Virus record (IMG/VR): IMGVR_UViG_3300020476_000160
Span: 1 to 23,241 of that record
Origin: a virus
Strand: one strand, 5' to 3'
Length of the DNA: 23,241 nt
The position numbers and the translations under genes were made by a program. Under the pieces are notes generated by a model, which was not told the DNA's origin, did no database searches, and saw nothing but the letters and a program-made list of their open reading frames with translations. Shown here piece by piece: positions 4,343-19,379 of this stretch; within the stretch, counting starts at the first letter, position 1; each line of letters opens with the position of its first letter.

Positions 4343-4461
4343 TGTGGATTTACGAAACAAAAGCTGGAACATATAAAGAAGATAGTTTAATTAAGTTATT
4401 AGTTACTATTTACAAACATAGATTTCATCATTTAGTAAATGATGGTAAGTGGATAGATTGA
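4342..4461 (+). CDS. Small ORF between queD and queE, 39 aa
   Basis: The ATG shares its A with the queD stop (TAATG), and its TGA shares a base with the queE ATG (TGATG). The 39-aa product begins MWIYETKAGTYKEDSLIKLL and ends HHLVNDGKWID. The exact head-to-tail overlaps on both sides argue that it is translated. No motif is recognised. It may help couple translation or be a small partner protein. Confidence 0.6.
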   Translation: MWIYETKAGTYKEDSLIKLLVTIYKHRFHHLVNDGKWID

Positions 4462-5360
4462 TGTTATATTCAGAAATTTTTAGAAGTATTCAAGGAGAAG
4501 GTATTTACACAGGAGTTCCAACTGTTTGGTTGAGACTATTTGGTTGTAACTTAGAGTGTAATGGATTTGGACAAGATGATCCAACTGATCCTGATTCTTA
4601 TGTCTTACCTTATCAAGAAATAGACTTGACTGATATTACAGTACCAGAAGAATTACCAGTATTTTCTTATGGTTGTGATTCATCTTATTCTTGGTCAAAG
4701 AGATTTAAGAAACTTCAAAGAACAGGAACGCCAGAGGAAGTAGCTAAACAATTATATGATATAATGTATGATAATAGAACTCATGTAGCTTTTACAGGTG
4801 GAGAGCCAATGATGAAAGCAGGTCAAAAGAATATTGTTAAAGTTATGAAACATTTAAGAGAACATTTTACAGTTGATAATCATAGAGGTTATTTAACGAA
4901 TGTAACTTTTGAAACAAATGGTACTAGAAAGATTGAAGATGAACTGAAAAATCAAATTATCTACGATAGTACTAGTCAAATTACTGAATACTTTTTTTCA
5001 GTAAGTCCTAAAATATGGAGTACAAGTGGAGAGAAAGATAGAATATGTCCTGATATTGTAAGAGGATATCAAGATGCATGTGGCCATTTTGATGGTTATC
5101 AAGGTAATAAAGAACCACAAGGACAATTAAAATTTGTATGTAATGGAACAGATCAATCTTGGGACGAAATAGAAGATGCAGTAGCATCATTCAGACATTC
5201 TGGAGTTCGTTATCCGATCTGGATAATGCCAGTAGGTGCTACAGAAGAAAGTCAGAATAAAGAGCATGTAGCGAAGATAGCAGAACAAACAATGGACAGA
5301 GGATACAATGTATCAGCTAGAGTTCATTGTTACATTTGGGGAAATCAGATAGGAACATAA
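4461..5360 (+). CDS. queE: QueE-like radical SAM 7-carboxy-7-deazaguanine synthase
   Basis: QueE rearranges 6-carboxy-tetrahydropterin to 7-carboxy-7-deazaguanine with a radical SAM [4Fe-4S] cluster. The N-terminus MLYSEIFRSIQGEGIYTGVP is diagnostic, and AFTGGEPM is the SAM-binding GGEP motif. The cysteines are unusual: FGC29NLEC33N would normally continue as x-C-D-T, but about 38 residues are inserted before C72-D-S-S-Y-S-W. I take C29, C33 and C72 as the cluster ligands, giving CX3CX38C. I chose the ATG at 4461 over an in-frame GTG at 4449 because it matches the family N-terminus and overlaps the previous stop. At 299 aa it is longer than E. coli QueE (about 220 aa). Confidence 0.9.
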   Translation: MLYSEIFRSIQGEGIYTGVPTVWLRLFGCNLECNGFGQDDPTDPDSYVLPYQEIDLTDITVPEELPVFSYGCDSSYSWSKRFKKLQRTGTPEEVAKQLYDIMYDNRTHVAFTGGEPMMKAGQKNIVKVMKHLREHFTVDNHRGYLTNVTFETNGTRKIEDELKNQIIYDSTSQITEYFFSVSPKIWSTSGEKDRICPDIVRGYQDACGHFDGYQGNKEPQGQLKFVCNGTDQSWDEIEDAVASFRHSGVRYPIWIMPVGATEESQNKEHVAKIAEQTMDRGYNVSARVHCYIWGNQIGT

Positions 5361-5361
5361 C

Positions 5362-6177
5362 ATGGCAGAAATGATAACAAGCGGAAAAGAAAAAGTAAGA
5401 GGATCAACTGTTCTTTTATATAGTGGTGGAATGGATAGTTTAATGATTGATTATCTACTTAAACCAAATCTTTTATTGAATATTAGTACGAATTCAGCTT
5501 ATGATGAAAGAGAAAGAAAATCATTTCCAGAATCTGTATATGAAGAAGGCAAAGATATTATTTATCTTAATGATGTTCTTAATTTAAGAGATTATGAAAG
5601 AGATGATGCTATAGTTCCAAATAGAAACGCATATCTTATATTGTTAGCTTCTCATTATGGAGAAACAATATGGTTAGGTTCTGTTCATGGAGATAGATCA
5701 TTCGACAAAGATGAAGCCTTTTATGGTCATATGGAGACATTATTAAACCATATGTGGCAAGAACAACATTGGACAGAAGAAAGAAACTTTACAATAAGTT
5801 CTCCTTTTAAAGATAGAACTAAAACAGATTTAGTTGATGAATATTTACTTAAAGGTGGAACGGCAGAAGAATTATTACAATCATATTCTTGTTATGAAGG
5901 AGAAGAAAAACATTGTGGACATTGTAAAGCCTGTTTTAGAAAATGGGTAGCATTAGAAAATAATGGAATTATGACAGGAATTGAGTATTGGCAAAAAGTT
6001 CCATGGGAAGCTCCATGGTTAGATGAAATTTTATTACAAATTTTTAATGGTGGTTATCGAGGAAAAGAAGATCAAGATATTGTAGATGCTTTAGATAAAA
6101 CACCGAAACACACATTACTTGATCATTATCAAACACAAGCAAATCATTTATTAAGAACAAGGGAATTTAAATTATGA
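5362..6177 (+). CDS. queC: QueC-like 7-cyano-7-deazaguanine (preQ0) synthase
   Basis: QueC uses ATP and ammonia to turn 7-carboxy-7-deazaguanine into preQ0. The PP-loop SGGMDS is at 21-26, after a beta strand (STVLLY). The structural zinc site C177-X7-C185-X2-C188-X2-C191 (SCYEGEEKHCGHCKACFRKW) is the canonical QueC signature, and VPNRNAYLILLASHYGE is the family's nucleotide-pocket segment. The 271-aa length is near or slightly above bacterial QueC (about 230), with the excess at the C-terminus. There is no fused amidotransferase domain of the Gat-QueC type, so conversion on to archaeosine is not indicated. Its TGA overlaps the folE ATG. Confidence 0.93.
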   Translation: MAEMITSGKEKVRGSTVLLYSGGMDSLMIDYLLKPNLLLNISTNSAYDERERKSFPESVYEEGKDIIYLNDVLNLRDYERDDAIVPNRNAYLILLASHYGETIWLGSVHGDRSFDKDEAFYGHMETLLNHMWQEQHWTEERNFTISSPFKDRTKTDLVDEYLLKGGTAEELLQSYSCYEGEEKHCGHCKACFRKWVALENNGIMTGIEYWQKVPWEAPWLDEILLQIFNGGYRGKEDQDIVDALDKTPKHTLLDHYQTQANHLLRTREFKL

Positions 6178-6830
6178 AAACAGATAAAAAATTAGGATAT
6201 GAAGTTAGAAAATATCTTATTAAGAAAGGTGTTGAAACACCTATAGTTGATGTTAAATTAGATCGTGAAGAAAAAATAGATTTAATTAGAGCTAATATGA
6301 GAACAATTATTGAAGTTTTAGGACTTGATACTCAAGATGATTCAATTAGTGGATCAGCTGAAAGAGTTGCTAAAATGTATATTGACGAATTATGTGCTGG
6401 GTTAGATTATAATAAATTTCCTGCAGTCACAGTATTTGACAATAAAATGGGATACAATCAAATGGTCTTACAAAAAGATATTACATTTCATTCAATGTGC
6501 GAACATCATTTTGTAAATTTTCATGGATTAGCTCAAGTAGCTTATATTCCAAATGGTAAAGTAGTTGGATTATCAAAATTAAATAGAATTGTAAACTTCT
6601 TTGCTAGAAGGCCACAAGTTCAAGAGAGATTAAATGAACAGGTATTCTATGCTTTAGAATATATTTTAAAAACATCAGATATTGCTGTCTTAATGCAAGC
6701 AGAACATTTATGCGTTAAGTCAAGAGGAATACATGATCAAAATTCAGGTATGACAACTTCAAAACTTGGTGGTGGATTTTATGATATCGCAAAACTTAGA
6801 AATGAATTTATGGTGTTGGCAAGTCAATGA
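6174..6830 (+). CDS. folE: GTP cyclohydrolase I (FolE)
   Basis: FolE makes dihydroneopterin triphosphate from GTP, the entry step to preQ0 (and to folate). The zinc ligands are visible: C109 and H112 in HSMCEHHFVNFHG, and C180 in EHLCVKSRG. Other hallmarks are VVGLSKLNRIV, RRPQVQERL and the GMTTSKLGG tail. The length (218 aa) and residue numbering are almost those of E. coli FolE (222 aa). The ATG overlaps the queC stop and the TGA overlaps the dpdA-like start. Having the first enzyme on the phage genome suggests the pathway does not depend on host pterin flux. Confidence 0.95.
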   Translation: MKTDKKLGYEVRKYLIKKGVETPIVDVKLDREEKIDLIRANMRTIIEVLGLDTQDDSISGSAERVAKMYIDELCAGLDYNKFPAVTVFDNKMGYNQMVLQKDITFHSMCEHHFVNFHGLAQVAYIPNGKVVGLSKLNRIVNFFARRPQVQERLNEQVFYALEYILKTSDIAVLMQAEHLCVKSRGIHDQNSGMTTSKLGGGFYDIAKLRNEFMVLASQ

Positions 6831-8113
6831 AATTTGAATATGTAATATCAGGACTAACAATGGGAATAGATGATCTCTATTATAATCCCAAAGTTGCAGC
6901 TCCATACATTCATCACATGAATCAAAAGATTATAGATATGAATGAGAAATATGATTATCAGAATATGTCTATACTCTTTAATGCTCATACTGAAAGAACG
7001 CATGGTGTAACTATGAACGATACTATGAATCATAGTTGGCATAGAATATTTGCTGATTCAGGTGGATTACAACTCGCTAGAATGAAAAGTGGAATTACAC
7101 CAGAAGTAAAAGATAAAATTTATCATCATCAAGCTAAGTATTGTGATGTTGCTATGATATTTGATGAAATACCTATTGAGTATGATTTAAATTTGACTGG
7201 TGGTAATTCAATGAAAGCTGATATAACTGGTCGAAGATTTGTTAGAGAAGATTTAGAAAAGACAGCTATAGCTACTAGAGATAATGTTAAAAGACAAATA
7301 GAAGTTTTCAAGAAAGAAAATTCTAGAGCTAAGATTATGTTAATCTCACAAGGTCAAGATGTAGATTCTTGGAGAAAATATATTGAAGTTATTTGTGATG
7401 GATTAGATGATGAAGAAATAGAAACAATGTGTACAGGAATTTCTCTTGGTTCACAATGTAATGGTAATCATTTCGCTCATAGAATGGAAATGATATATGC
7501 CGCAAGAGAGTATCAAGTACCCGATTCTTTAAGAAAGAACATACATTTACTAGGCGTAGGCAATCCAAATGCTCTCATGCCGTTTATAGTGTCTCCTAGG
7601 TACTTTGATTTCATAGATAACTTATCTTATGATTCTAGTTCACACGCATCATCTTGGTTTTTCTCAAGATATAGAGATAAGAATTACAAACAAATTACAC
7701 TAGAGGCTCCGTTTAGATCAAAGAAATTATTACAAGATATTGTAGAGAATGATTTAAGACCTGTAATAGATGATATTTTAAATGATCATTCAGAAGCTTT
7801 TGCTGAGTTCGGTGTAACTGATTCTGATTTTATTATTAATGAATCAACAAAATGGTCTATTCATAATAAAGAAAAAGAGAGAAAATTTATTAGACCAGGT
7901 GGAGAAGATGCTTACAGATTATTAGTTTGGTATTGGGTTACAAATACAGTTCAACATTTTATGGACGAATTAAATAGAAGAAAAGTTAAACCACATGATG
8001 AAACAGGATTATCTAGTATTAATAATTATGAAGAATTTACAAAATATTGGTTGCCAAGACAAAGAGCTCCACAAAAAGTGAGAGAATATTGGCCGAGTAG
8101 GTTAGATGTATAG
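6827..8113 (+). CDS. dpdA: DpdA-like DNA guanine transglycosylase
   Basis: DpdA is a relative of tRNA-guanine transglycosylase that swaps guanine in DNA for a 7-deazaguanine base. TGT-fold landmarks appear in order: FADSGGLQ (75-82) with D77 at the base-binding/general Asp position, MIFDEIP (110-116), ISQGQ (173-177), TGISLGS (203-209), LLGVGNP (241-247), and YDSSSHAS (268-275) with D269 as the likely nucleophile. No C-terminal zinc site of the bacterial tRNA enzyme is seen. Together with FolE, QueD, QueE and QueC in the same operon, DNA rather than tRNA is the probable substrate (inference from known phage systems). With QueC as the last base-forming enzyme seen, the modified base is probably preQ0 unless other genes lie outside the window. 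Confidence 0.88.
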   Translation: MKFEYVISGLTMGIDDLYYNPKVAAPYIHHMNQKIIDMNEKYDYQNMSILFNAHTERTHGVTMNDTMNHSWHRIFADSGGLQLARMKSGITPEVKDKIYHHQAKYCDVAMIFDEIPIEYDLNLTGGNSMKADITGRRFVREDLEKTAIATRDNVKRQIEVFKKENSRAKIMLISQGQDVDSWRKYIEVICDGLDDEEIETMCTGISLGSQCNGNHFAHRMEMIYAAREYQVPDSLRKNIHLLGVGNPNALMPFIVSPRYFDFIDNLSYDSSSHASSWFFSRYRDKNYKQITLEAPFRSKKLLQDIVENDLRPVIDDILNDHSEAFAEFGVTDSDFIINESTKWSIHNKEKERKFIRPGGEDAYRLLVWYWVTNTVQHFMDELNRRKVKPHDETGLSSINNYEEFTKYWLPRQRAPQKVREYWPSRLDV

Positions 8114-8549
8114 AAAATATGATAAAATTTATTATGATTGGCATGATTATGCACATGATATGAAAGAAGTTAAAGCTTTAGAATTTAATCATGTGGTTGG
8201 AATATATAGAGGTAGCTTAGGAATGGCGGCCCATATATCAAATGTTTTTGAAGTACCTATGTCAATAGTAGGATTTCAAACAAGAGACGGTAAAGATAAA
8301 GAACCTTATATGATCTGTAGAAAAGGTGGTTTAAAAAAAGACACAACAAACATTTTAGTTGTTGACGATATCTACGATTCGGGTTATACTATGAATAGGG
8401 TAATAAAATTTTTATCACACCCTTCTATAAATAAAATTCAGGGTTTTTGTCTTTTCGGAAAAGATAATGATCTTAATGTTTCTTGTGCTAATATACATGA
8501 TGGTTCCTGGATTGTTTTTCCATGGGAGACATTAGATGAATCCGTTTGA
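8106..8549 (+). CDS. Purine-type phosphoribosyltransferase
   Basis: Type I phosphoribosyltransferase fold: VVGIYRGSLGMAAHISN (30-46) forms the PPi-loop region, and ILVVDDIYDSGYTM (83-96) is the PRPP-binding motif with its paired acidic residues. WIVFPWE near the end resembles xanthine/hypoxanthine/guanine enzymes. The length (147 aa) fits small purine transferases (about 150 aa). It overlaps the dpdA-like gene by 8 nt and gp62 by 14 nt. Since DpdA releases free guanine, a transferase that returns guanine to GMP would recycle it toward GTP, the FolE substrate. That link is my inference; uracil or another base cannot be excluded. Confidence 0.85.
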   Translation: MYRKYDKIYYDWHDYAHDMKEVKALEFNHVVGIYRGSLGMAAHISNVFEVPMSIVGFQTRDGKDKEPYMICRKGGLKKDTTNILVVDDIYDSGYTMNRVIKFLSHPSINKIQGFCLFGKDNDLNVSCANIHDGSWIVFPWETLDESV

Positions 8550-11950: not shown

Positions 11951-12024
11951 GAGCTCTTCTACTCTAAGAAGGCTTTGATCAAAATATAAACTCTATTGTA
12001 GTCAATTTATTTTCACTTTTAATT

Positions 12025-12054
12025 AAAAAGGCGTGTTTTAACACGCCTTTTTTT
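12025..12054 (+). terminator. Intrinsic terminator
   Basis: A perfect 13-bp stem AAAAAGGCGTGTT / AACACGCCTTTTT (12025-12037 with 12040-12052) with a 2-nt loop as drawn, in practice a slightly larger loop, runs into a T tract ending at 12054. It ends the transcript carrying the IscA-like gene. Being A-rich on its left arm, it could also work for the opposite strand. A late promoter begins within its T tract. Confidence 0.9.
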
Positions 12055-12061
12055 ATAAATA
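12054..12061 (+). promoter_or_regulatory. T4-type late promoter (TATAAATA)
   Basis: TATAAATA starts at the last T of the terminator. With initiation expected near 12068, the leader would be about 38 nt and contain AGGGGAAG before the ATG at 12106. It should drive late expression of the two large exported-looking proteins. Confidence 0.75.
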
Positions 12062-12105: not shown

Positions 12106-13638
12106 ATGAGAAAGATAGGCATTTTTACAATGTTTCTATTAACGGTAAGTTTGTGGTCAACACAGCTGATAGCAGACCAAACTGGCGATTGTACTGCAGG
12201 CTCGGAGTTTTGTGAAAATAATAATCAAACAACTACCAGCACTAGCACTAACACCAATACCAATAATAATACTAACACCAATACCAGCACAAATACTAAC
12301 ACCAGCACCAATACTAACACAAGTACTAGCACCAATACTAACACCAACACTAGCACAAATACTAATGCTAATACCAATGTTAATACGAACACTAGCACCA
12401 ATACAAATAGCAATACAAATGTAAATACCAACACCAATAGCAACACTAATGCAAACACTAATGTAAATACCAACACTAGCACTGCAACAAATACAAATGC
12501 TAATACAAATACAAACACTAATACAAATGCTACAACTTATACTGGTAGTTCAACCAATACAAATGCTAATACAAATAGCAATACTAATGTCAATACTAGC
12601 ACAAGCAACAATGTAAATACAAATGTAAATACAAATAATAGCACGAGCAATAATACTAGCAATAATACAAATACTAATACTAGCACGAGCACTAGTAATA
12701 ATACTAACACTAATAATTCAACTGTAAATTCAACAGCTAGCAATACAAATGTAAATACAAATACTAGCACAGTAGATCAAACAGTTAATAGTACTAGCAC
12801 ATCAAATAATACCAATACCAACAATAATAATAACACTTCAAATAGCACATCAAATAATACAAATGTTAATAAAAATGAAAGTACAAGTACATCAGATAGT
12901 AATGTAACAACAAATAATACTAATAAAAACGAAAACACCAATAAAAATGAGAACATTAATAAAACCGATCAAACGATTAAGCAAGAGATTACTACCAAGG
13001 CTCCGCCTGCTAGTGCTATTGCACCTTCCATCGGCTCTAGTTACTCTCAGGACTTGTGTACCACTGGTGTATCCGGTGCTTTTCAAGGCCAAGTCTTTGG
13101 TTTATCAGGTGGTAAAAGCGTTAGGGATATGAATTGTGAAAGGATTAAACTTTCTAAAACAGTCTATGATATGGGTATGAAGGTAGCGGCTGTATCTTTA
13201 ATGTGCCAAGATGCAAGAGTATTTCAAGCAATGGAAATGGCTGGAACTCCATGTCCTTACATGGGCAAGATTGGAAGTGAAGCAGCTGAAGCTTGGGAAG
13301 AAAATTCAAAAGATAGACCAGATGCTAAAGAATATGCTAATAAAAAGAAACCGACACGAGCTGAAAAGAAAGCTGAAAAGAAAAGATTGAAAGATGAAGC
13401 TGCAGCAAAAAAGGCCGAAGAAAAACGAATTGCAAGAGCTGTAAAAGATTCCGAAGATAAGATGAATGAAACACTTGAGAAAAAGAAGAAGGCATTTATT
13501 GCACAATGTTCAGCTGAACCTAATCCAACTAGAGAAAGAATTCAGAAAGATGTTGTAGGAGCTATTGATTCGATTGTAACTCCAAAAACAAAAACAAATA
13601 AACAATGTGCTAAAGAATGGGAAAATTTAAATATATAA
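12106..13638 (+). CDS. Secreted-looking Asn/Thr/Ser-repeat protein, 510 aa
   Basis: The N-terminus is a typical signal peptide (MRKIGIFTMFLLTVSLWSTQ, likely cut after LIA, near residue 23). Residues about 40-290 are almost only N, T and S with some V, A and K, built from degenerate T-N-T-N/T-S-T units. A folded cysteine-containing domain follows (about 305-395: DLCTTGVSGAFQGQVFGLSG, then NCERIKLSKTVYDMGMKVAA and AGTPCPYMG). Next come a Lys/Glu/Ala-rich helical stretch (about 415-470) and a C-terminal segment with two Cys. I recall the folded domain from other marine phage proteins, but its function is unknown. It sits behind a late promoter and overlaps the next, also exported-looking gene by 22 nt. 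Surface display, adhesion or envelope binding are possible roles. Confidence 0.82.
   Translation: MRKIGIFTMFLLTVSLWSTQLIADQTGDCTAGSEFCENNNQTTTSTSTNTNTNNNTNTNTSTNTNTSTNTNTSTSTNTNTNTSTNTNANTNVNTNTSTNTNSNTNVNTNTNSNTNANTNVNTNTSTATNTNANTNTNTNTNATTYTGSSTNTNANTNSNTNVNTSTSNNVNTNVNTNNSTSNNTSNNTNTNTSTSTSNNTNTNNSTVNSTASNTNVNTNTSTVDQTVNSTSTSNNTNTNNNNNTSNSTSNNTNVNKNESTSTSDSNVTTNNTNKNENTNKNENINKTDQTIKQEITTKAPPASAIAPSIGSSYSQDLCTTGVSGAFQGQVFGLSGGKSVRDMNCERIKLSKTVYDMGMKVAAVSLMCQDARVFQAMEMAGTPCPYMGKIGSEAAEAWEENSKDRPDAKEYANKKKPTRAEKKAEKKRLKDEAAAKKAEEKRIARAVKDSEDKMNETLEKKKKAFIAQCSAEPNPTRERIQKDVVGAIDSIVTPKTKTNKQCAKEWENLNI
12229..12990 (+). repeat. Degenerate AAYACY/AGYACY low-complexity repeat
   Basis: About 760 bp of short degenerate units such as AATACTAACACC, ACTAGCACC and AATACAAATGTT, encoding runs of Asn, Thr and Ser. 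Codon third positions vary (AAT/AAC, ACT/ACC/ACA), so selection appears to hold the amino-acid pattern rather than the DNA. It is coding throughout, in frame with the 12106 gene, with no stop and no spacers, so it is not a CRISPR array. Slippage or recombination could change its length. Confidence 0.85.
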
Positions 13639-16541
13639 TACTACTAGTAACTTGTCTATTCACGACAAGTGCAATAGCTGATAATAACACGAGCTGTTCT
13701 AACAATCAAAATTGTTATGACAGTAGTGTTTATGTCTATGAAGGTGGTCAAGACCTTATAGACCTTTACAGTATGTCAGGTACAACCAACTTAAATTCAG
13801 GTGATGATCAATGGTCCTCCCAAGTATCTCTTGGTATGGAATGGAGTAGATGGGGACAAACTTGGGGGCATGCAAGAATGTCAACCAATGGTTGTGTAAA
13901 CCTTAGAGGAGGCTCTTCAGGAGGCAATTCATCAAACTGTAACGACTACACACCACAATCCTTACCTTATAGAAATTATACCTTATATCCTTTTTGGACT
14001 GATTTAATTAGAGGAACAGCATCAGGCGGACAAAGTTCCAAGATGTTATTTAAAGACTTTGGTGATTATGTTGTCTTTGGTTGGTATTACTTAAAAGAAT
14101 ATCATAGAAGTTCAAGTAATAGTTTTGAAGCAATCCTTTACGATAATAATTCATACGAATACAGATACAGAGAATTAGATATTATTCAGCATGATGTTGT
14201 TATAGGTGAACAAGGTAGTAGTTCAGAAACAGAGACATTTTTATACTATAATGATGGACAAAGTGGCTACGCTACTTTAGATGCTTATTTAGCAGGATAT
14301 GGTGGTCCTGATATTGAAAATGGTGGATCTTTATATTCAGGTACACTTTCAGAGATGTGTGCTATAAATGCACTTTACAGTACAGAGTGTTCAGGTTATG
14401 CAGCTGCACTTTTAGCTCAAGAATGTGCTGCTAACGCATTATATAGTGAATCATGTTCTGGATATGCAGTAGCTTACTTTAATCAACAATGTGGAATTAA
14501 TACTTTGTATGATGAAGAATGTACAGGTTATGATGCAGCATACTTAATTCAACAATGTGATTTAGATACATTATATTCTAGTCAATGTGATGGTTATAAT
14601 TCAGCATTAGCAGCAGAAGAAGCTTTATGGGAAGCAATTTATGGATCCACTGATGATGATTTGTATGGTTATGATGGAAGTGATGAATACGGATATGAAG
14701 ATGAATATGGATATGATGAATATGGTAATGCTTATACCCAAGATGATATGTGGTATGATGAAGAATTTGATGAATACTTAGACCCTAATGATCCTTGTTA
14801 TCAAAATGCTTGTGAAGGATTTACAGATGCTGATTGGTATGCACTAGACATAGAACAATTCGGTCAAGAACAAGTTGATGAATGGTATGGAAATGATGTT
14901 CAATTTTCTGATGAAGGTTATATTGATTATGGAGATCAAACAGAAGAAGAATATTGGACAGAAATTGATGATGGAATGAATGAGTATGATGCAGAACAAG
15001 AAGCAATATGGCTTGCAGAAGAAGAAGCGTGGCAACAAGAAGAACAGAGAATGTATGAAGAAGAAATGGCCATGATAGAAGAACAAGAATTAGCATGGGT
15101 AGAAGAAGAAGCTTTCTATGAAACTCTTGAAACTGATGCTGATTGGTATGATTATGAAGTAGAAGAATTTGGTCAAGAACAAGTTGATGAATGGTGGGGA
15201 GAAGAAGTATCTTTTAATGAAGAAGGATTTGTAGAAGAAGCTTATTGGGAAGAAGATTTGTATGCAAATGTTGATGATATTTACATTTTAGAAGAAACAA
15301 TAGGTGTAGAGATATTTGTAGAAGAAGAATGGTCAACTGATGAAGAATTAGATATCTATGAAGAAGTATTAGAAGATTATGAATTAGAAGCATTAGAAAC
15401 TCAAGAAGAGGAAGTCTTTGAAGAATTTGAAGAAACTTATGAAGAGGAAGAACTTTACATAGAAGAAGATGAAGCCTTTGAAGAACTTATTAATGAGGAA
15501 GAATTAGAAGAACTTATTAATGAGGATCGTGAAGAAGAATTTTTTGAAGAAGCTCAAGAAGAAGAACTGTTTGATGAAGAAGGCGATGACAGTAATGACT
15601 CAGGATCCAATAATCAAAGAGAAAAGAAAAGTACTATAATGATAGCTCAACAGCAAGTACAACAAGAACAACAAACAATACAACAGGCTGTATCTCAAGA
15701 TTCAGCTCCTAGTAGTTCACAGGCAGTTGTATCAGCAATAGATTTTGGTGGTACACAACAAGATCAATCAACAGTAGCAGATGTCTTACAAGAACAATTA
15801 GATGATGGCTCAGGTAGTACAACAGGTGGAAGTTTTGACAGTAATTCATTTTCAACTGGTGGTGGTACTATGGTAAGTAGTAATCAACAACAACAAATAT
15901 CAGAATCTACAGGTGATACACAAATAATGGAACAACAAGAACAATTAACAGGTCAATCACAAATACAAGTAGCAGAAGTAGTTGGTGCAGGACCAGCAGT
16001 ATCAGCTTTTGAAGTATCTGAACAACAACAAGAGCAACAACAAGAACAACAAGTATTGACTTTTGATGATGGTTCTAGTTTTACAGTAGCAGATCAGAAC
16101 TTTGAAAGTTCTTTTGATGATGCATTAGGATCAGGACAAAGTATTGGCCAGTTTTTATCAAATCAAGCTCCAAGTTTTGCTAAGTTTGATATAGCACCAC
16201 CAACTGTTAGTGAACAACAAGTATCATCAGCTGTAGAATCATTAGCTGATAGAGTGGGTTCACAAGTAGCAGCACAGAACTTACAAACACAATTAGATAC
16301 TGTACAAGAAGGTGGTGGGTTTGATGTAGATCAAACAGCAACAGTTGCGTACATAGGGTATAGCTCAGGATTTTCAGATTATACTGGACAAGCACAATTA
16401 TCTGATAGAGATGATTGGTATATATCTAAAACATTATATAAAGATAATAAAATAGATGATAATAAATTCAGTTTTTATATGATGGCGGGTAAAACGCAAA
16501 AGAAATTACAAGAAATGATAAATAGTCAGTATAAACAATAA
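13617..16541 (+). CDS. Large modular exported-looking protein, 974 aa
   Basis: The ATG at 13617 lies inside the end of the previous gene. Parts in order: signal peptide (MGKFKYIILLVTCLFTTSAIA, 1-21), then a globular domain to about 225 resembling a NIDO-like beta domain (MSTNGCVNL, LYPFWTDLIRG, SFEAILYDNNSYEYRY). Next are four 22-residue cysteine repeats (248-335) and a strongly acidic Tyr/Asp/Glu-rich region (about 340-675) with an internal duplication. A Gln/Ser-rich stretch (about 685-860) follows, then a conserved-looking end (YISKTLYKDN ... MINSQYKQ). I recall similar C-termini in marine T4-like phages, apparently virion- or lysis-associated, but cannot assign a function. The composition suggests extracellular or periplasmic metal or surface binding. 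It is cotranscribed with the 12106 and 16553 genes. Confidence 0.82.
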   Translation: MGKFKYIILLVTCLFTTSAIADNNTSCSNNQNCYDSSVYVYEGGQDLIDLYSMSGTTNLNSGDDQWSSQVSLGMEWSRWGQTWGHARMSTNGCVNLRGGSSGGNSSNCNDYTPQSLPYRNYTLYPFWTDLIRGTASGGQSSKMLFKDFGDYVVFGWYYLKEYHRSSSNSFEAILYDNNSYEYRYRELDIIQHDVVIGEQGSSSETETFLYYNDGQSGYATLDAYLAGYGGPDIENGGSLYSGTLSEMCAINALYSTECSGYAAALLAQECAANALYSESCSGYAVAYFNQQCGINTLYDEECTGYDAAYLIQQCDLDTLYSSQCDGYNSALAAEEALWEAIYGSTDDDLYGYDGSDEYGYEDEYGYDEYGNAYTQDDMWYDEEFDEYLDPNDPCYQNACEGFTDADWYALDIEQFGQEQVDEWYGNDVQFSDEGYIDYGDQTEEEYWTEIDDGMNEYDAEQEAIWLAEEEAWQQEEQRMYEEEMAMIEEQELAWVEEEAFYETLETDADWYDYEVEEFGQEQVDEWWGEEVSFNEEGFVEEAYWEEDLYANVDDIYILEETIGVEIFVEEEWSTDEELDIYEEVLEDYELEALETQEEEVFEEFEETYEEEELYIEEDEAFEELINEEELEELINEDREEEFFEEAQEEELFDEEGDDSNDSGSNNQREKKSTIMIAQQQVQQEQQTIQQAVSQDSAPSSSQAVVSAIDFGGTQQDQSTVADVLQEQLDDGSGSTTGGSFDSNSFSTGGGTMVSSNQQQQISESTGDTQIMEQQEQLTGQSQIQVAEVVGAGPAVSAFEVSEQQQEQQQEQQVLTFDDGSSFTVADQNFESSFDDALGSGQSIGQFLSNQAPSFAKFDIAPPTVSEQQVSSAVESLADRVGSQVAAQNLQTQLDTVQEGGGFDVDQTATVAYIGYSSGFSDYTGQAQLSDRDDWYISKTLYKDNKIDDNKFSFYMMAGKTQKKLQEMINSQYKQ
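14358..14621 (+). repeat. Four tandem 22-aa cysteine repeats
   Basis: The unit is C-x9-C-x11 with the core C-x-x-N/D-A/T-L-Y-x-x-x-C-x-G-Y-x-x-A, at residues 248-269, 270-291, 292-313 and 314-335. Examples are CAANALYSESCSGYAVAYFN and CGINTLYDEECTGYDAAYLI. Eight cysteines at regular spacing suggest a disulfide ladder or metal sites in an exported protein. Similar motifs occur in other marine phage and bacterial proteins by my recollection. Confidence 0.85.
14823..15230 (+). repeat. Duplicated 33-aa unit in acidic region
   Basis: Two copies of a unit with the pattern TDADWY-x6-FGQEQVDEW-x3-V-x-F-x-x-EG lie at 14823-14921 and 15132-15230, 309 bp (103 codons) apart. About 19 of 33 residues are identical, including the whole FGQEQVDEW block. 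The stretch between them is Glu/Ala/Gln-rich and probably helical. This points to internal duplication of a roughly 100-residue module. Confidence 0.8.
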
Positions 16542-16552
16542 GGAGAATTAAA

Positions 16553-16984
16553 ATGGCTGAAATAGAAGTAGCGGGAGTTAAAGCAAGTGGTTCTAAACTA
16601 CTTTTGATTCTCCCTTTAATAGGAACTCTTATAGGTGGCCTTTGGGGTGGATTTGAACTTTACAATAGATTATTAGTAGCTGAAAAGAAATTAGCTTTAA
16701 TGCAACCAGCACAAATACAAGCTGAAATGGATAAGTTAGTAGCACTTACAGATGTTATAAAAGATAATCTACAAGGAGAAATTACAACTGCAGTTAGACT
16801 TGCTAGAGAAGTAGAAACAAGCTCTGCAGAAACTCAAAGACAAATTAGAACTGATGTTTATGAAATGGAGCGAGAAATGCAGAAGCGTTTTCGTGAAATG
16901 GATCAAGACATTAGAGATAATAGATCAGATTTAGAAGAAAAGATATCCACTATCTTAGAAAATCCACTTAATGATGTGGAGTAA
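16553..16984 (+). CDS. Membrane-anchored coiled-coil protein, 143 aa
   Basis: One hydrophobic segment (about residues 16-36, LLLILPLIGTLIGGLWGGF) is followed by a long charged helix with heptad-like spacing, from LLVAEKKLALM to IRTDVYEMEREMQKRFREMD and EEKISTILE. This is a TM anchor plus a coiled coil of about 100 residues. RBS AGGAGA (16542-16547). It closes the cluster after the two exported-looking proteins and overlaps a tiny membrane ORF at its end. A spanin-like or envelope-connecting role is possible in view of the shape, but nothing specific supports it. Confidence 0.7.
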   Translation: MAEIEVAGVKASGSKLLLILPLIGTLIGGLWGGFELYNRLLVAEKKLALMQPAQIQAEMDKLVALTDVIKDNLQGEITTAVRLAREVETSSAETQRQIRTDVYEMEREMQKRFREMDQDIRDNRSDLEEKISTILENPLNDVE

Positions 16985-17063
16985 AATTCCCGTATGGGTT
17001 ATATCTACACTTGTCTATGTGATAGGTGGTGGACTTATGTTTGTTATTATGTTTTATACTTGA
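16974..17063 (+). CDS. Tiny single-TM membrane peptide, 29 aa
   Basis: The frame starts in the last codons of the previous gene (ATG at 16974) and encodes MWSKIPVWVISTLVYVIGGG followed by LMFVIMFYT. It is a short basic start and one continuous hydrophobic helix. The overlap and clean TM profile suggest a real gene, for example a holin or regulator of the preceding membrane protein. At 29 codons chance cannot be excluded. Confidence 0.5.
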   Translation: MWSKIPVWVISTLVYVIGGGLMFVIMFYT

Positions 17064-17092
17064 TACCGCAGGTACACTTTTTGTATAATATA
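17058..17092 (+). repeat. 35-bp direct repeat, copy 1 (promoter)
   Basis: This 35-bp sequence is identical to 17710-17744 and spans a complete sigma70-type promoter. Identity stops sharply on both sides, so just the promoter is duplicated, 652 bp apart. Confidence 0.95.
17060..17089 (+). promoter_or_regulatory. Sigma70-type promoter upstream of structured RNA
   Basis: TTGATA (17060-17065), an 18-bp spacer and a perfect TATAAT (17084-17089). Initiation would fall near 17096-17098, a few bases before the closing stem of the structured RNA (17101). The -35 box overlaps the stop codon of the 29-aa ORF. Confidence 0.8.
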
Positions 17093-17100
17093 TGTCATAC

Positions 17101-17219
17101 GATTGAGAAAGTCAGTTCTATAGAAACTGATTCAGGAAACAAGAAGTTTTCAGAGTAGGTCGGTTGTTGAGTTCATGATAGACTACAACTGTAAACGAAA
17201 TCCTACTCCTTTCTCAATT
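17101..17219 (+). ncRNA. Candidate multi-branched small RNA
   Basis: Five helices fit together without conflict. P1: a 10-bp perfect stem ATTGAGAAAG (17102-17111) with CTTTCTCAAT (17209-17218), extended by a G-U pair. P2: TCAGTT (17112-17117) with AACTGA (17125-17130). P3: GAAAC (17136-17140) with GTTTTC (17146-17151), one bulge. P4: GAGTAGG (17153-17159) with CCTACTC (17202-17208), stacked directly on P1. P5: CGGTTGT (17161-17167) with ACAACTG (17185-17191), one G-U, 17-nt loop. No ORF covers it, and a good promoter ends just upstream. It may be an independent small RNA or the 5' domain of a long leader for the gene at 17378. It matches no class I know. Confidence 0.7.
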
Positions 17220-17377
17220 ACGGTTGTGGATAATAAACTAAGTATTAGAAATCGAAAGTGGGAAAATACGGGACAACAAACAAACGAAAAAGGCACGCAG
17301 AAACCTTGTTAAAAACTGATGAGTAAAAAGGAAGCTTCTTAATTGAGGCTTTCCTTGAATTTAATTATGGAGAAAAA
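17220..17377 (+). other. Non-coding leader after structured RNA
   Basis: No ORF is seen. Weaker pairings are possible: GTTGT (17224-17228) with ACAAC around 17274, enclosing TAATA/TATTA, and AAGG/CCTT around 17290-17306. The stretch ends in the hairpin at 17328 and an AUGGAG-type ribosome binding site for the gene at 17378. It probably forms the rest of the leader transcribed from the 17060 promoter. Confidence 0.4.
17328..17356 (+). terminator. Hairpin ahead of gene at 17378 (terminator or leader element)
   Basis: AAGGAA plus GCTTC (17328-17338) pairs with GAGGC plus TTCCTT (17345-17356), with one bulged T and a 6-nt loop TTAATT, giving 11 bp. The downstream run GAATTTAATT is only moderately T-rich. 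It may end the structured RNA or act as a 5' mRNA element. Confidence 0.45.
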
Positions 17378-17710
17378 ATGGGATATATAAATTTAACTAA
17401 TTCGTTAAGATACGGACCTACAGGAAAAAAAAGAAAGTCATATTATAAGACTAAAAGTTTATCAACTAAAAAACAATCAACTACAAATTCAACACTAAAA
17501 CCTTCTTATCAAGAATCTGAAAGAATGAAACAGATTCGTGAATTTAATGAGAAGTATCCTTCAGCGGCTAGTTCAGGCTTAGGAAATACAAGAAAGCCTG
17601 ACGATTCTTACAAGAAAGAAACATCAAAGAAATACACAGTAGCCATAGGTTATAATAAAGGTGGATATCAAGTAATACCTAAATCAGAGATAAAAGATAT
17701 TGGAAAATAA
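17378..17710 (+). CDS. Hypothetical basic protein, 110 aa
   Basis: GGAG RBS at 17369. The first half is basic and Ser/Thr/Lys-rich (GPTGKKRKSYYKTKSLSTKK), likely disordered. The middle has ERMKQIREFNEKYPS, and the C-terminal third (KYTVAIGYNKGGYQVIPKSE) looks like a small folded unit. I recall this C-terminal motif from other marine phage proteins without known function. The gene lies behind a 280-nt leader with the five-helix RNA, so RNA-based control is possible. Confidence 0.7.
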   Translation: MGYINLTNSLRYGPTGKKRKSYYKTKSLSTKKQSTTNSTLKPSYQESERMKQIREFNEKYPSAASSGLGNTRKPDDSYKKETSKKYTVAIGYNKGGYQVIPKSEIKDIGK

Positions 17711-17744
17711 CTTGATACCGCAGGTACACTTTTTGTATAATATA
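17710..17744 (+). repeat. 35-bp direct repeat, copy 2 (promoter)
   Basis: Identical to 17058-17092. TTGATA is at 17712-17717 and TATAAT at 17736-17741, with an 18-bp spacer. Initiation is expected near 17748, 5 nt before the ATG of the next small ORF. It probably drives 17753 to 18850. The stop codon of the upstream gene lies just before the -35 box, the same geometry as copy 1. Confidence 0.85.
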
Positions 17745-18270: not shown

Positions 18271-18702
18271 ATGCCAGTAGAAAAAAGTGAAGAATTAGAA
18301 GGTTCTTGGGTTGGACAAGAAAAACAGAGATATGATTTTGTTCTCAAACTTTTAGAACAAAAATCAACAACACGAGGTTATTGGGTTTATCGAATGACAG
18401 ATAGACATGGTAACAATTTTATTGCCTTTGATGGTAGAGAACAATGGAACCTTCCAGCTACGAAAGAATTTACACACGAATCACAACATAAACAAGAAGA
18501 AGGCTATACAGGTGATCATAGATTGCAAGAAGGAGATTGTTTTACTTGTAAAGCAACAGTCAATAGACACGATATAGCACAGTATAAATATGGTAGTCCA
18601 GATAGTAAATTTAAACAAACTGTACTAAATAGAATTAAATTAAAGGAATTCATTGGTAGAACTGATGGATATAAATCATATAATGAAGAAACAGAGAATT
18701 GA
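18271..18702 (+). CDS. Hypothetical protein, possible OB-fold, 143 aa
   Basis: The order of the segments TRGYWVYRMTDRHGNNFIAF, EGDCFTCKATVNRHDIAQY and KFKQTVLNRIKLKEF looks like five short strands of a small beta barrel with a K-x-T-V-L-N-R-I/V-K end. I have seen this in small phage proteins, and it suggests an OB-like nucleic-acid-binding fold. This is a pattern judgement only. Cys90 and Cys93 (CFTC) form the only CxxC. It overlaps the next gene by 20 nt. Confidence 0.7.
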   Translation: MPVEKSEELEGSWVGQEKQRYDFVLKLLEQKSTTRGYWVYRMTDRHGNNFIAFDGREQWNLPATKEFTHESQHKQEEGYTGDHRLQEGDCFTCKATVNRHDIAQYKYGSPDSKFKQTVLNRIKLKEFIGRTDGYKSYNEETEN

Positions 18703-18926: not shown

Positions 18927-19379
18927 ATGAATAAGTTAAGCATATGGGACGATTTCAGTCCCTTCACAATAGGATTCGGTTCAGTTTTTAATGAACTAGA
19001 TAGAGTCCGATCATTACCACAAACCAATTATCCACCTTATAACATCCGTAAGGGTGCTGAGGAAGATTCTTATATTATTGAATTAGCATTAGCTGGATTT
19101 TCAGAAGAAGATGTGACTGTTTCAGTCAAAGAATCTAATCTGACTGTCTCAGGTGAGCTTAGTGATAAGGATAATGGATTTGTTCATCAAGGTATCTCAC
19201 AACGAAAATTCTCAAGGAACTTTGTTCTTGCAGATGATGTTGTGGTTAAAGGTGCCGATCTTTCAAATGGAATACTTTCCATTTATGCTGAAAGAGTAGT
19301 TCCGGAAGAAAAGAAAGCCAGAACTATTGAGATTGGTAAGGTCTCAAAATCTACTAAGAAACAATTCTTGAGTGAATAA
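18927..19379 (+). CDS. Hsp20/alpha-crystallin small heat shock protein
   Basis: The 150-aa product has the alpha-crystallin core at about 35-140: YNIRKGAEEDSYIIELALAG (strand pair), FSEEDVTVSVKESNLTVSGE, and FSRNFVLADDVVVKGADLSN with the family's G-I-L-S-I continuation (NGILSIYAERVVP). A C-terminal I-E-I motif (TIEIG) probably mediates oligomer contacts. RBS AGGAGGA (18915). Hsp20 is conserved in T4-like cyanophages and related marine phages, where it may help virion protein folding. The late promoter upstream fits that. Confidence 0.93.
   Translation: MNKLSIWDDFSPFTIGFGSVFNELDRVRSLPQTNYPPYNIRKGAEEDSYIIELALAGFSEEDVTVSVKESNLTVSGELSDKDNGFVHQGISQRKFSRNFVLADDVVVKGADLSNGILSIYAERVVPEEKKARTIEIGKVSKSTKKQFLSE

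Follow-up and report, generated by a model that had tools for sequence, protein, structure and literature searches.

The window analysed here, a 23,241-base stretch of DNA held as an IMG/VR virus record, probably carries the gene of a new, independently acting phage RNA, not a switch for the neighbouring gene. By its sequence the window is that of a marine T4-like phage, and its DNA polymerase shares 48-49% identity with the T4-like cyanophage counterparts. At the sequence level the locus has what is expected of a stand-alone non-coding RNA (ncRNA) gene, namely its own promoter, its own terminator and independence of context, and we are rather confident that it is a phage gene of this kind, ending in a terminator-like hairpin of its own. 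The account that best explains the whole, which we hold to be reasonably probable, is that of a structured RNA of ~270 nt, running from promoter to hairpin and most likely acting in trans. RNA structure, extent, promoter and recurrence in several contexts can be read from the DNA, and transcription is what we infer from them (Table 1).

Table 1. Features of the candidate RNA locus and of its surroundings (window coordinates)
Feature	Position	Strand	Details
ORF	16974..17063	+	29-aa membrane-type (MWSKIPVWVISTLVYVIGGGLMFVIMFYT); upstream of the RNA; read from sequence
Sigma70-type promoter TTGATA-18-TATAAT	17060..17089	+	spacer with family-wide CCGCAGGTACAC
Putative ncRNA gene, ~260-270 nt	17097..17356	+	homology to L109, L114, L127 and L108 over the whole stretch
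P1 closing stem	17102..17111 with 17209-17218	+	10 Watson-Crick pairs and one G-U; from the fold
P2 hairpin	17112..17130 (17112-17117/17125-17130)	+	loop CUAUAGA, palindrome CUAUAG
P3 hairpin	17135..17151 (17135-17140/17146-17151)	+	loop AAGAA
P4 stem GAGUAGG/CCUACUC	17153..17208 (17153-17159/17202-17208)	+	encloses P5
P5 hairpin	17166..17189 (stem 17166-17170/17185-17189)	+	loop palindrome UCAUGA, 17173-17178
Competing-pairing segment	17209..17269	+	17209-17225 pairs with the P1 5' strand or with ~17250-17265
3' module	17285..17333	+	hairpin AAGG/CCUU (17290-17293/17304-17307), 10-nt loop CACGCAGAAA, then UUAAAAA and AUGAGU
Terminator-like hairpin	17328..17356	+	AAGGAAGCUUC..GAGGCUUUCCUU
ORF	17378..17710	+	110 aa; downstream of the RNA; not tied to the RNA in relatives
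Second exact promoter copy, 33 nt	17711..17743	+	closes the slot

Four further IMG/VR copies were located via neighbouring proteins and sequence patterns; three are full (L109, L114 and L127), whereas L108 is cut at its 5' end by the contig end. L105 carries the same copy as L109, and L098 the same as L108. The copies align with the window from the promoter through the terminator-like hairpin, so that the conserved sequence extends to ~17356 and the RNA is about twice as long as the sequence-only reading had marked when it placed the 3' boundary at 17219. Identity to the window amounts to 98% and 93% over two segments in L109 (neighbouring genes 77-88%), 92% in L108 (neighbouring genes 78-86%) and 89% in L114, with the Hsp20 gene of L109 and L108 as the exception among the neighbours at 95-96% (96% in L109); in these two the RNA is more conserved than most genes beside it, which either strong selection or recent exchange would explain. 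The phage Hsp20 gene of the window (18927-19379) is itself 94-96% identical in DNA between phages, most of whose other genes stand at 73-88%.

The searches for more distant relatives returned the known copies. A covariance model (R1), built on the RNAalifold structure of the alignment A1, gave the copies 243-325 bits, these members having been in the model; its scores are mainly sequence-based because that structure dropped P1, probably since L098 and L108 are cut there by the contig end. The covariance search that had been suggested for this RNA, run over 50 related records, HTVC008M and Mosig among them, recovered the known copies and no further ones, together with matches of 8-13 bits that we take as chance. 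By BLAST against 50,697 phage records, a 3.9-kb query gave no match to the RNA, and the RNA alone gave just matches with E values of 0.09-5, among them one in Akh-2; the match in a Listeria record falls in an apparent protein C-terminus, and a 17-mer of P-RSM6 scored 5.9 bits with the covariance model, so both were set aside. The pattern scans also returned one Planctomycetota contig, as well as the IMG/VR stretches L113, L125 and L126, which were rejected as non-homologous.

The five copies, the window included, lie on separate contigs and represent three or more genomic settings. The genes downstream of the RNA correspond between the window and L108; a cyclase gene precedes it in L109; and in L114 and L127 it stands beside the major capsid gene (named by eye) on the opposite strand, where, being antisense to the capsid-gene operon, it can be neither the leader of this operon nor its by-product. 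The next element after the RNA in the four other copies is a tRNA-Asp, a further promoter or the capsid gene in convergent orientation; in L108 a terminator-like hairpin comes between the RNA and the tRNA-Asp. This tRNA-Asp lies directly beside L108 in the tRNA scan, which found none in the window or L109.

The sequence-only reading had also proposed a sigma70-type promoter belonging to the RNA, and this is borne out by the relatives. The element upstream of the RNA has 11 of 12 matches to the sigma70-type consensus, which makes it near-consensus, and in the 2.5 kb examined no sigma70-type match is better than this element and its exact copy. All full copies retain it, as TTGAAA or TTGACA, an 18-nt spacer and TATAAT, and the distance from promoter to first helix is nearly unchanged in them. 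The same promoter element is present in 15 viral stretches. Its position predicts a 5' end at 17096-17097. The stop codon of the 29-aa ORF upstream overlaps the -35 element, and an equivalent reading frame is also found in L001-L003 and L104.

Folding of 17097-17219 recovered all five helices of the earlier reading, with the 10-bp closing stem and the 7-bp stem. The seven pairs of P4 are perfect and are extended by UCG/CGA. The first of them changes from G-C in the window to A-U in L114 and L127, and L108, L114 and L127 all lack both partners of one A-U pair; this comparison is a hand alignment in which L114 and L127 have a bulged A. The stem of the terminator-like hairpin covaries as well (CUUC/GAAG in L127 vs CCUC/GAGG in L114), and its 3' side is followed by GTTTTT in L108 and by a poor T run in the window. 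Compensatory changes, to which the sequence-only reading had looked, are therefore present in the homologues, with one compensatory pair and one two-sided loss in P4 and a covarying terminator stem; conserved over five copies, the locus has the character of the structured ncRNA that had been claimed. The covariation is thin, drawn as it is from five sequences, some of them close to one another. P1 is invariant in four sequences and the P5 stem in five, the inner P5 part of the window fold being absent in L114; P2 has a single U-A to U-G change among the copies, and P3 a G-U to G-C change, with its terminal pair gone in L114 and L127. As these changes are one-sided at most, covariation neither supports nor refutes these four helices.

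The 3' strand of P1 may have a second partner. RNAalifold, with the contig-cut copy included, pairs 17209-17225 with 17250-17265, whereas single-sequence folds pair it with P1, and two inserted T residues in L114 could make the alternative helix longer; the RNA might switch from one pairing to the other. A possible pseudoknot combines CGGUU (17221-17225)/AAUCG (17250-17254) with GUAUU (17242-17246)/AAUAC (17265-17269). In the centre lies a variable hairpin, which has a long form in L109 and L127 and a short one in the remaining copies, though L114 and L127 share a locus.

The folding energy of 17097-17219 is supporting, not decisive, evidence; homology is what decides. Tested against dinucleotide shuffles as had been suggested, its minimum free energy is -35.9 kcal/mol (shuffle mean -22.95, sd 3.35; z -3.87), and 0 of 200 shuffles were as stable. 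On energy alone the claim of an order far beyond random was overstated: among 966 stretches of 123 nt from both strands of the window, this one ranked 14th by z and 5th by energy (ranks that are noisy, each stretch having 30 shuffles), the top of the ranking includes a repetitive coding region and terminator regions, and the copies of two relatives reach a z of just -2.1. Such figures are what a chance fold of an AT-rich intergenic stretch would have in its favour; we give this explanation hardly any credence, considering the 89-98% conservation across contexts in which the flanks differ, the compensatory changes and the conserved promoter. Somewhat better placed, although still quite improbable, is a cis-acting leader, in which the RNA would form the 5' UTR of the 17378 gene and act by attenuation or by masking its start. 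The interval between the RNA and 17378 holds no second promoter, the two competing partners of 17209-17225 are switch-like, and the weak terminator of the window makes read-through likely. However, a conserved link with the downstream gene is missing: no homologue of 17378 follows any of the four other copies (L108, L109, L114 and L127), each of which ends in a terminator-like hairpin of its own, and the covariance search did not find the RNA in HTVC008M and Mosig, the pelagimyophages that alone among the 50,697 phage records encode relatives of the 17378 protein. Control of 17378 in cis, one of the two roles first offered for the RNA, thus finds no backing in the relatives, and the other, regulation in trans, is favoured, as the contexts differ, each full copy has its own promoter, no 17378 homologue follows the other copies and phages bearing 17378 do without the RNA.

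The 3' half of the RNA raises two other explanations. The strand at 17240-17327 is purine-rich, nearly invariant and mostly unpaired, and such conservation of a mostly unpaired strand points to a ligand. This would suit an Hfq- or CsrA-type sRNA whose A-rich purine 3' half (ACAACAAACAAACGAAAAAGG), in which GGA recurs several times, would bind a host RNA chaperone or act as a sponge for a translational repressor, and the richness in ARN triplets and GGA and the terminator-type hairpin at the end go in the same direction. Nevertheless, the GGA motifs are not all conserved (AGATAA in L108, GUGAAAC in L114), and we regard this alternative as improbable. The same half might instead encode a 22-aa peptide starting at GTG or TTG (MGKYGTTSKRKRNAETLLKNNE), with the structure as its leader. 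The frame is open in five of five copies and the peptide is basic; on the other hand, changes are spread evenly over the codon positions (3 sites each, by hand count), the stop codon is not conserved in L108 and L109, no Shine-Dalgarno sequence is found, and the upstream lengths differ by 2 and 7 nt, all of which makes a small protein gene very improbable.

The sequence-only reading could not match the RNA to a known class, and the same holds for the database scans. The window and 14 related loci have no Rfam match at the gathering threshold, a local Rfam scan of 16950-17400 gave a best E value of 4, and ARAGORN found no tRNA or tmRNA in the window. The GOLLD, ROOL and OLE models gave nothing at the gathering threshold in the window and the 14 loci, nor did the local scan match them with E values of up to 10. 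Matches to U12, snoRNA, DnaX and trypanosome LSU models in the window, the RNA or its relatives have low scores and were dismissed as chance, and a hammerhead-like CUGAUGAG/GAAAC in the window is not conserved in relatives.

A partial likeness is to the DUF805 RNA (Rfam RF03081), which is typed as cis-regulatory. It concerns the 3' module, near-invariant in the five sequences, which shares with that family a 4-bp stem and a 10-nt loop ending in CAGAAA, followed by UUAAAAA and AUGAGU. The best score with its model is the 24.6 bits of L127 (E 0.0076, all families, 136 nt), against a gathering score of 51.1, so that membership is not supported; the window reaches 18.8 bits, and among 14 control genomes a single one exceeds the cut-off. 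Here, in contrast, the module makes up just the tail of an RNA that is larger, it lacks ~20 nt that separate the halves of the model, and the genes that follow differ between copies, so the RNA does not stand upstream of one gene type as a cis-regulator would.

The loops of the 5' domain suggest how RNA molecules might meet. It contains two 6-nt palindromes only, those in the P2 and P5 loops. Two palindromic hairpin loops occurred in 0 of 1000 shuffles and one in 5.6%; the window's own fold scores one, as a U-G pair edges one palindrome, and L114 scores two. The P5 loop is UCAUGA in the window, L109 and L114, UCGCGA in L108, and UCAUUGA in L127, an imperfect palindrome that self-pairs only around a central U-U mismatch. 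In OLE and GOLLD, double changes of adjacent bases in loops were taken as evidence for kissing loops (PMC12286853). The change from UCAUGA to UCGCGA resembles such covariation and, as one double change, would be weak evidence for it; by our own estimate, a palindrome-keeping AU to GC double change has a chance of ~3-8% given two loop changes. Multimerisation through the palindromic loops, which we draw from this analogy, is speculative and rather unlikely.

GOLLD and ROOL, large ornate phage RNAs with cryo-EM structures (PMC12286853), are likewise phage-encoded and stand-alone with no known protein partner, and have symmetric palindromic loops, one changing between palindromes. They often lie near tRNA genes; of the loci compared here, L108 has a tRNA-Asp as its direct neighbour and L100 and L101 have one in the slot, and the window and L109 have none. 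In contrast to GOLLD, often >800 nt, and to the many hundreds of nucleotides typical of these RNAs, the present one has ~270 nt and no Rfam match. An abundant ORF-less transcript of the Vibrio phage ICP1 is also a phage ncRNA of no known class or function (PMC7567579), although at ~800 nt it is longer, and the BLAST search of the RNA against phage records gave no sign of a relation. Another system to be considered is the phage-encoded pRNA of phi29, with its closing helix, its hairpins and loops that pair between molecules. The 5' domain is similar to it in size, closing helix and hairpins; the difference is that the Rfam scans gave no match to it and that the loops here are self-complementary. 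T4-like packaging is not known to involve an RNA.

In the mechanism that we propose, host-type (sigma70) RNA polymerase would start at ~17096 from a promoter used repeatedly in this phage group, and the transcript would end at the hairpin near 17328-17356. The 5' domain would form a folded scaffold in which P1 closes a junction of P2, P3 and P4/P5, and the 3' half would offer its purine strand, with one small hairpin module. Acting in trans, the RNA might then bind a protein of the host or the phage, or associate with further molecules of its own kind via the palindromic hairpin loops; apart from multimerisation, the main possibility is that the 3' strand binds a protein.

The RNA occupies a slot whose contents adjoin or lie between copies of the same promoter, slot relatives being those that have the gene at 16553 upstream or the one at 18271 downstream. 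The slot contains a tRNA-Asp in L100 and L101, and nothing, with one promoter only, in L104. A second RNA of ~165 nt occupies it in L001 (2787-2956), L002 (552-721), L003 (1634-1801) and L026 (3800-3968); this RNA has four two-sided compensatory pairs and, in addition, a change of AUCUA/UAGAU vs AUCUU/AAGAU noted by eye; a covarying stem bears its palindromic loop AGGCCU, which is invariant, and comparison with the window RNA revealed no relation. A third RNA, of ~290 nt, is present in L010 (551-845) and is the same in L004, L005 and L006. Its 3' module has a GUGG/CCAC hairpin, as in the DUF805 RNA family, with the loop AAGGCCGAAA (15.7 bits with that model), and a match of 6.4 bits (E 0.011 in 401 nt) is suggestive of just this module being shared with the window RNA. 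A more far-reaching reading, by analogy, is that of a new small phage RNA family forming homo-oligomers through its palindromic loops, as a small counterpart to the cages of GOLLD and ROOL, in a slot where unrelated structured RNAs and tRNAs swap; we consider this whole picture unlikely.

Few phage-encoded structured RNAs other than tRNA are known, and most of them have no assigned function. To these the present RNA adds a compact case with predicted defined ends, several homologues and a loop open to a multimerisation test, and its short length eases cryo-EM, gels and in vivo work in comparison with GOLLD or ROOL. The slot of these marine T4-like phages, in which RNA genes swap between copies of one promoter, is a place to seek more of them.

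Other features of the window and its relatives were noted in passing. The same promoter in L085 (663-760), and in L086, L090 and L091, precedes a leader of ~95 nt before a small gene; its fold has a z of just -1.0, and it is closed by a long stem, GAGAGAAGAAA/UUUUCUUCUCUC. A cluster at 4449-8549 of queE-, queC-, folE- and tRNA-guanine-transglycosylase-like genes with a phosphoribosyltransferase (folE and the latter assigned via HMM, the remaining genes named by eye) suggests 7-deazaguanine modification of DNA or RNA. Adjoining the slot, two large low-complexity ORFs (12106-16541; Asn/Thr repeats and Glu-rich composition) match no Pfam family. Finally, a strong intergenic structure at 11951-12055 (z -3.9) has at its 3' end a perfect terminator-like hairpin, AAAAAGGCGTGTTTTAACACGCCTTTTTTT.
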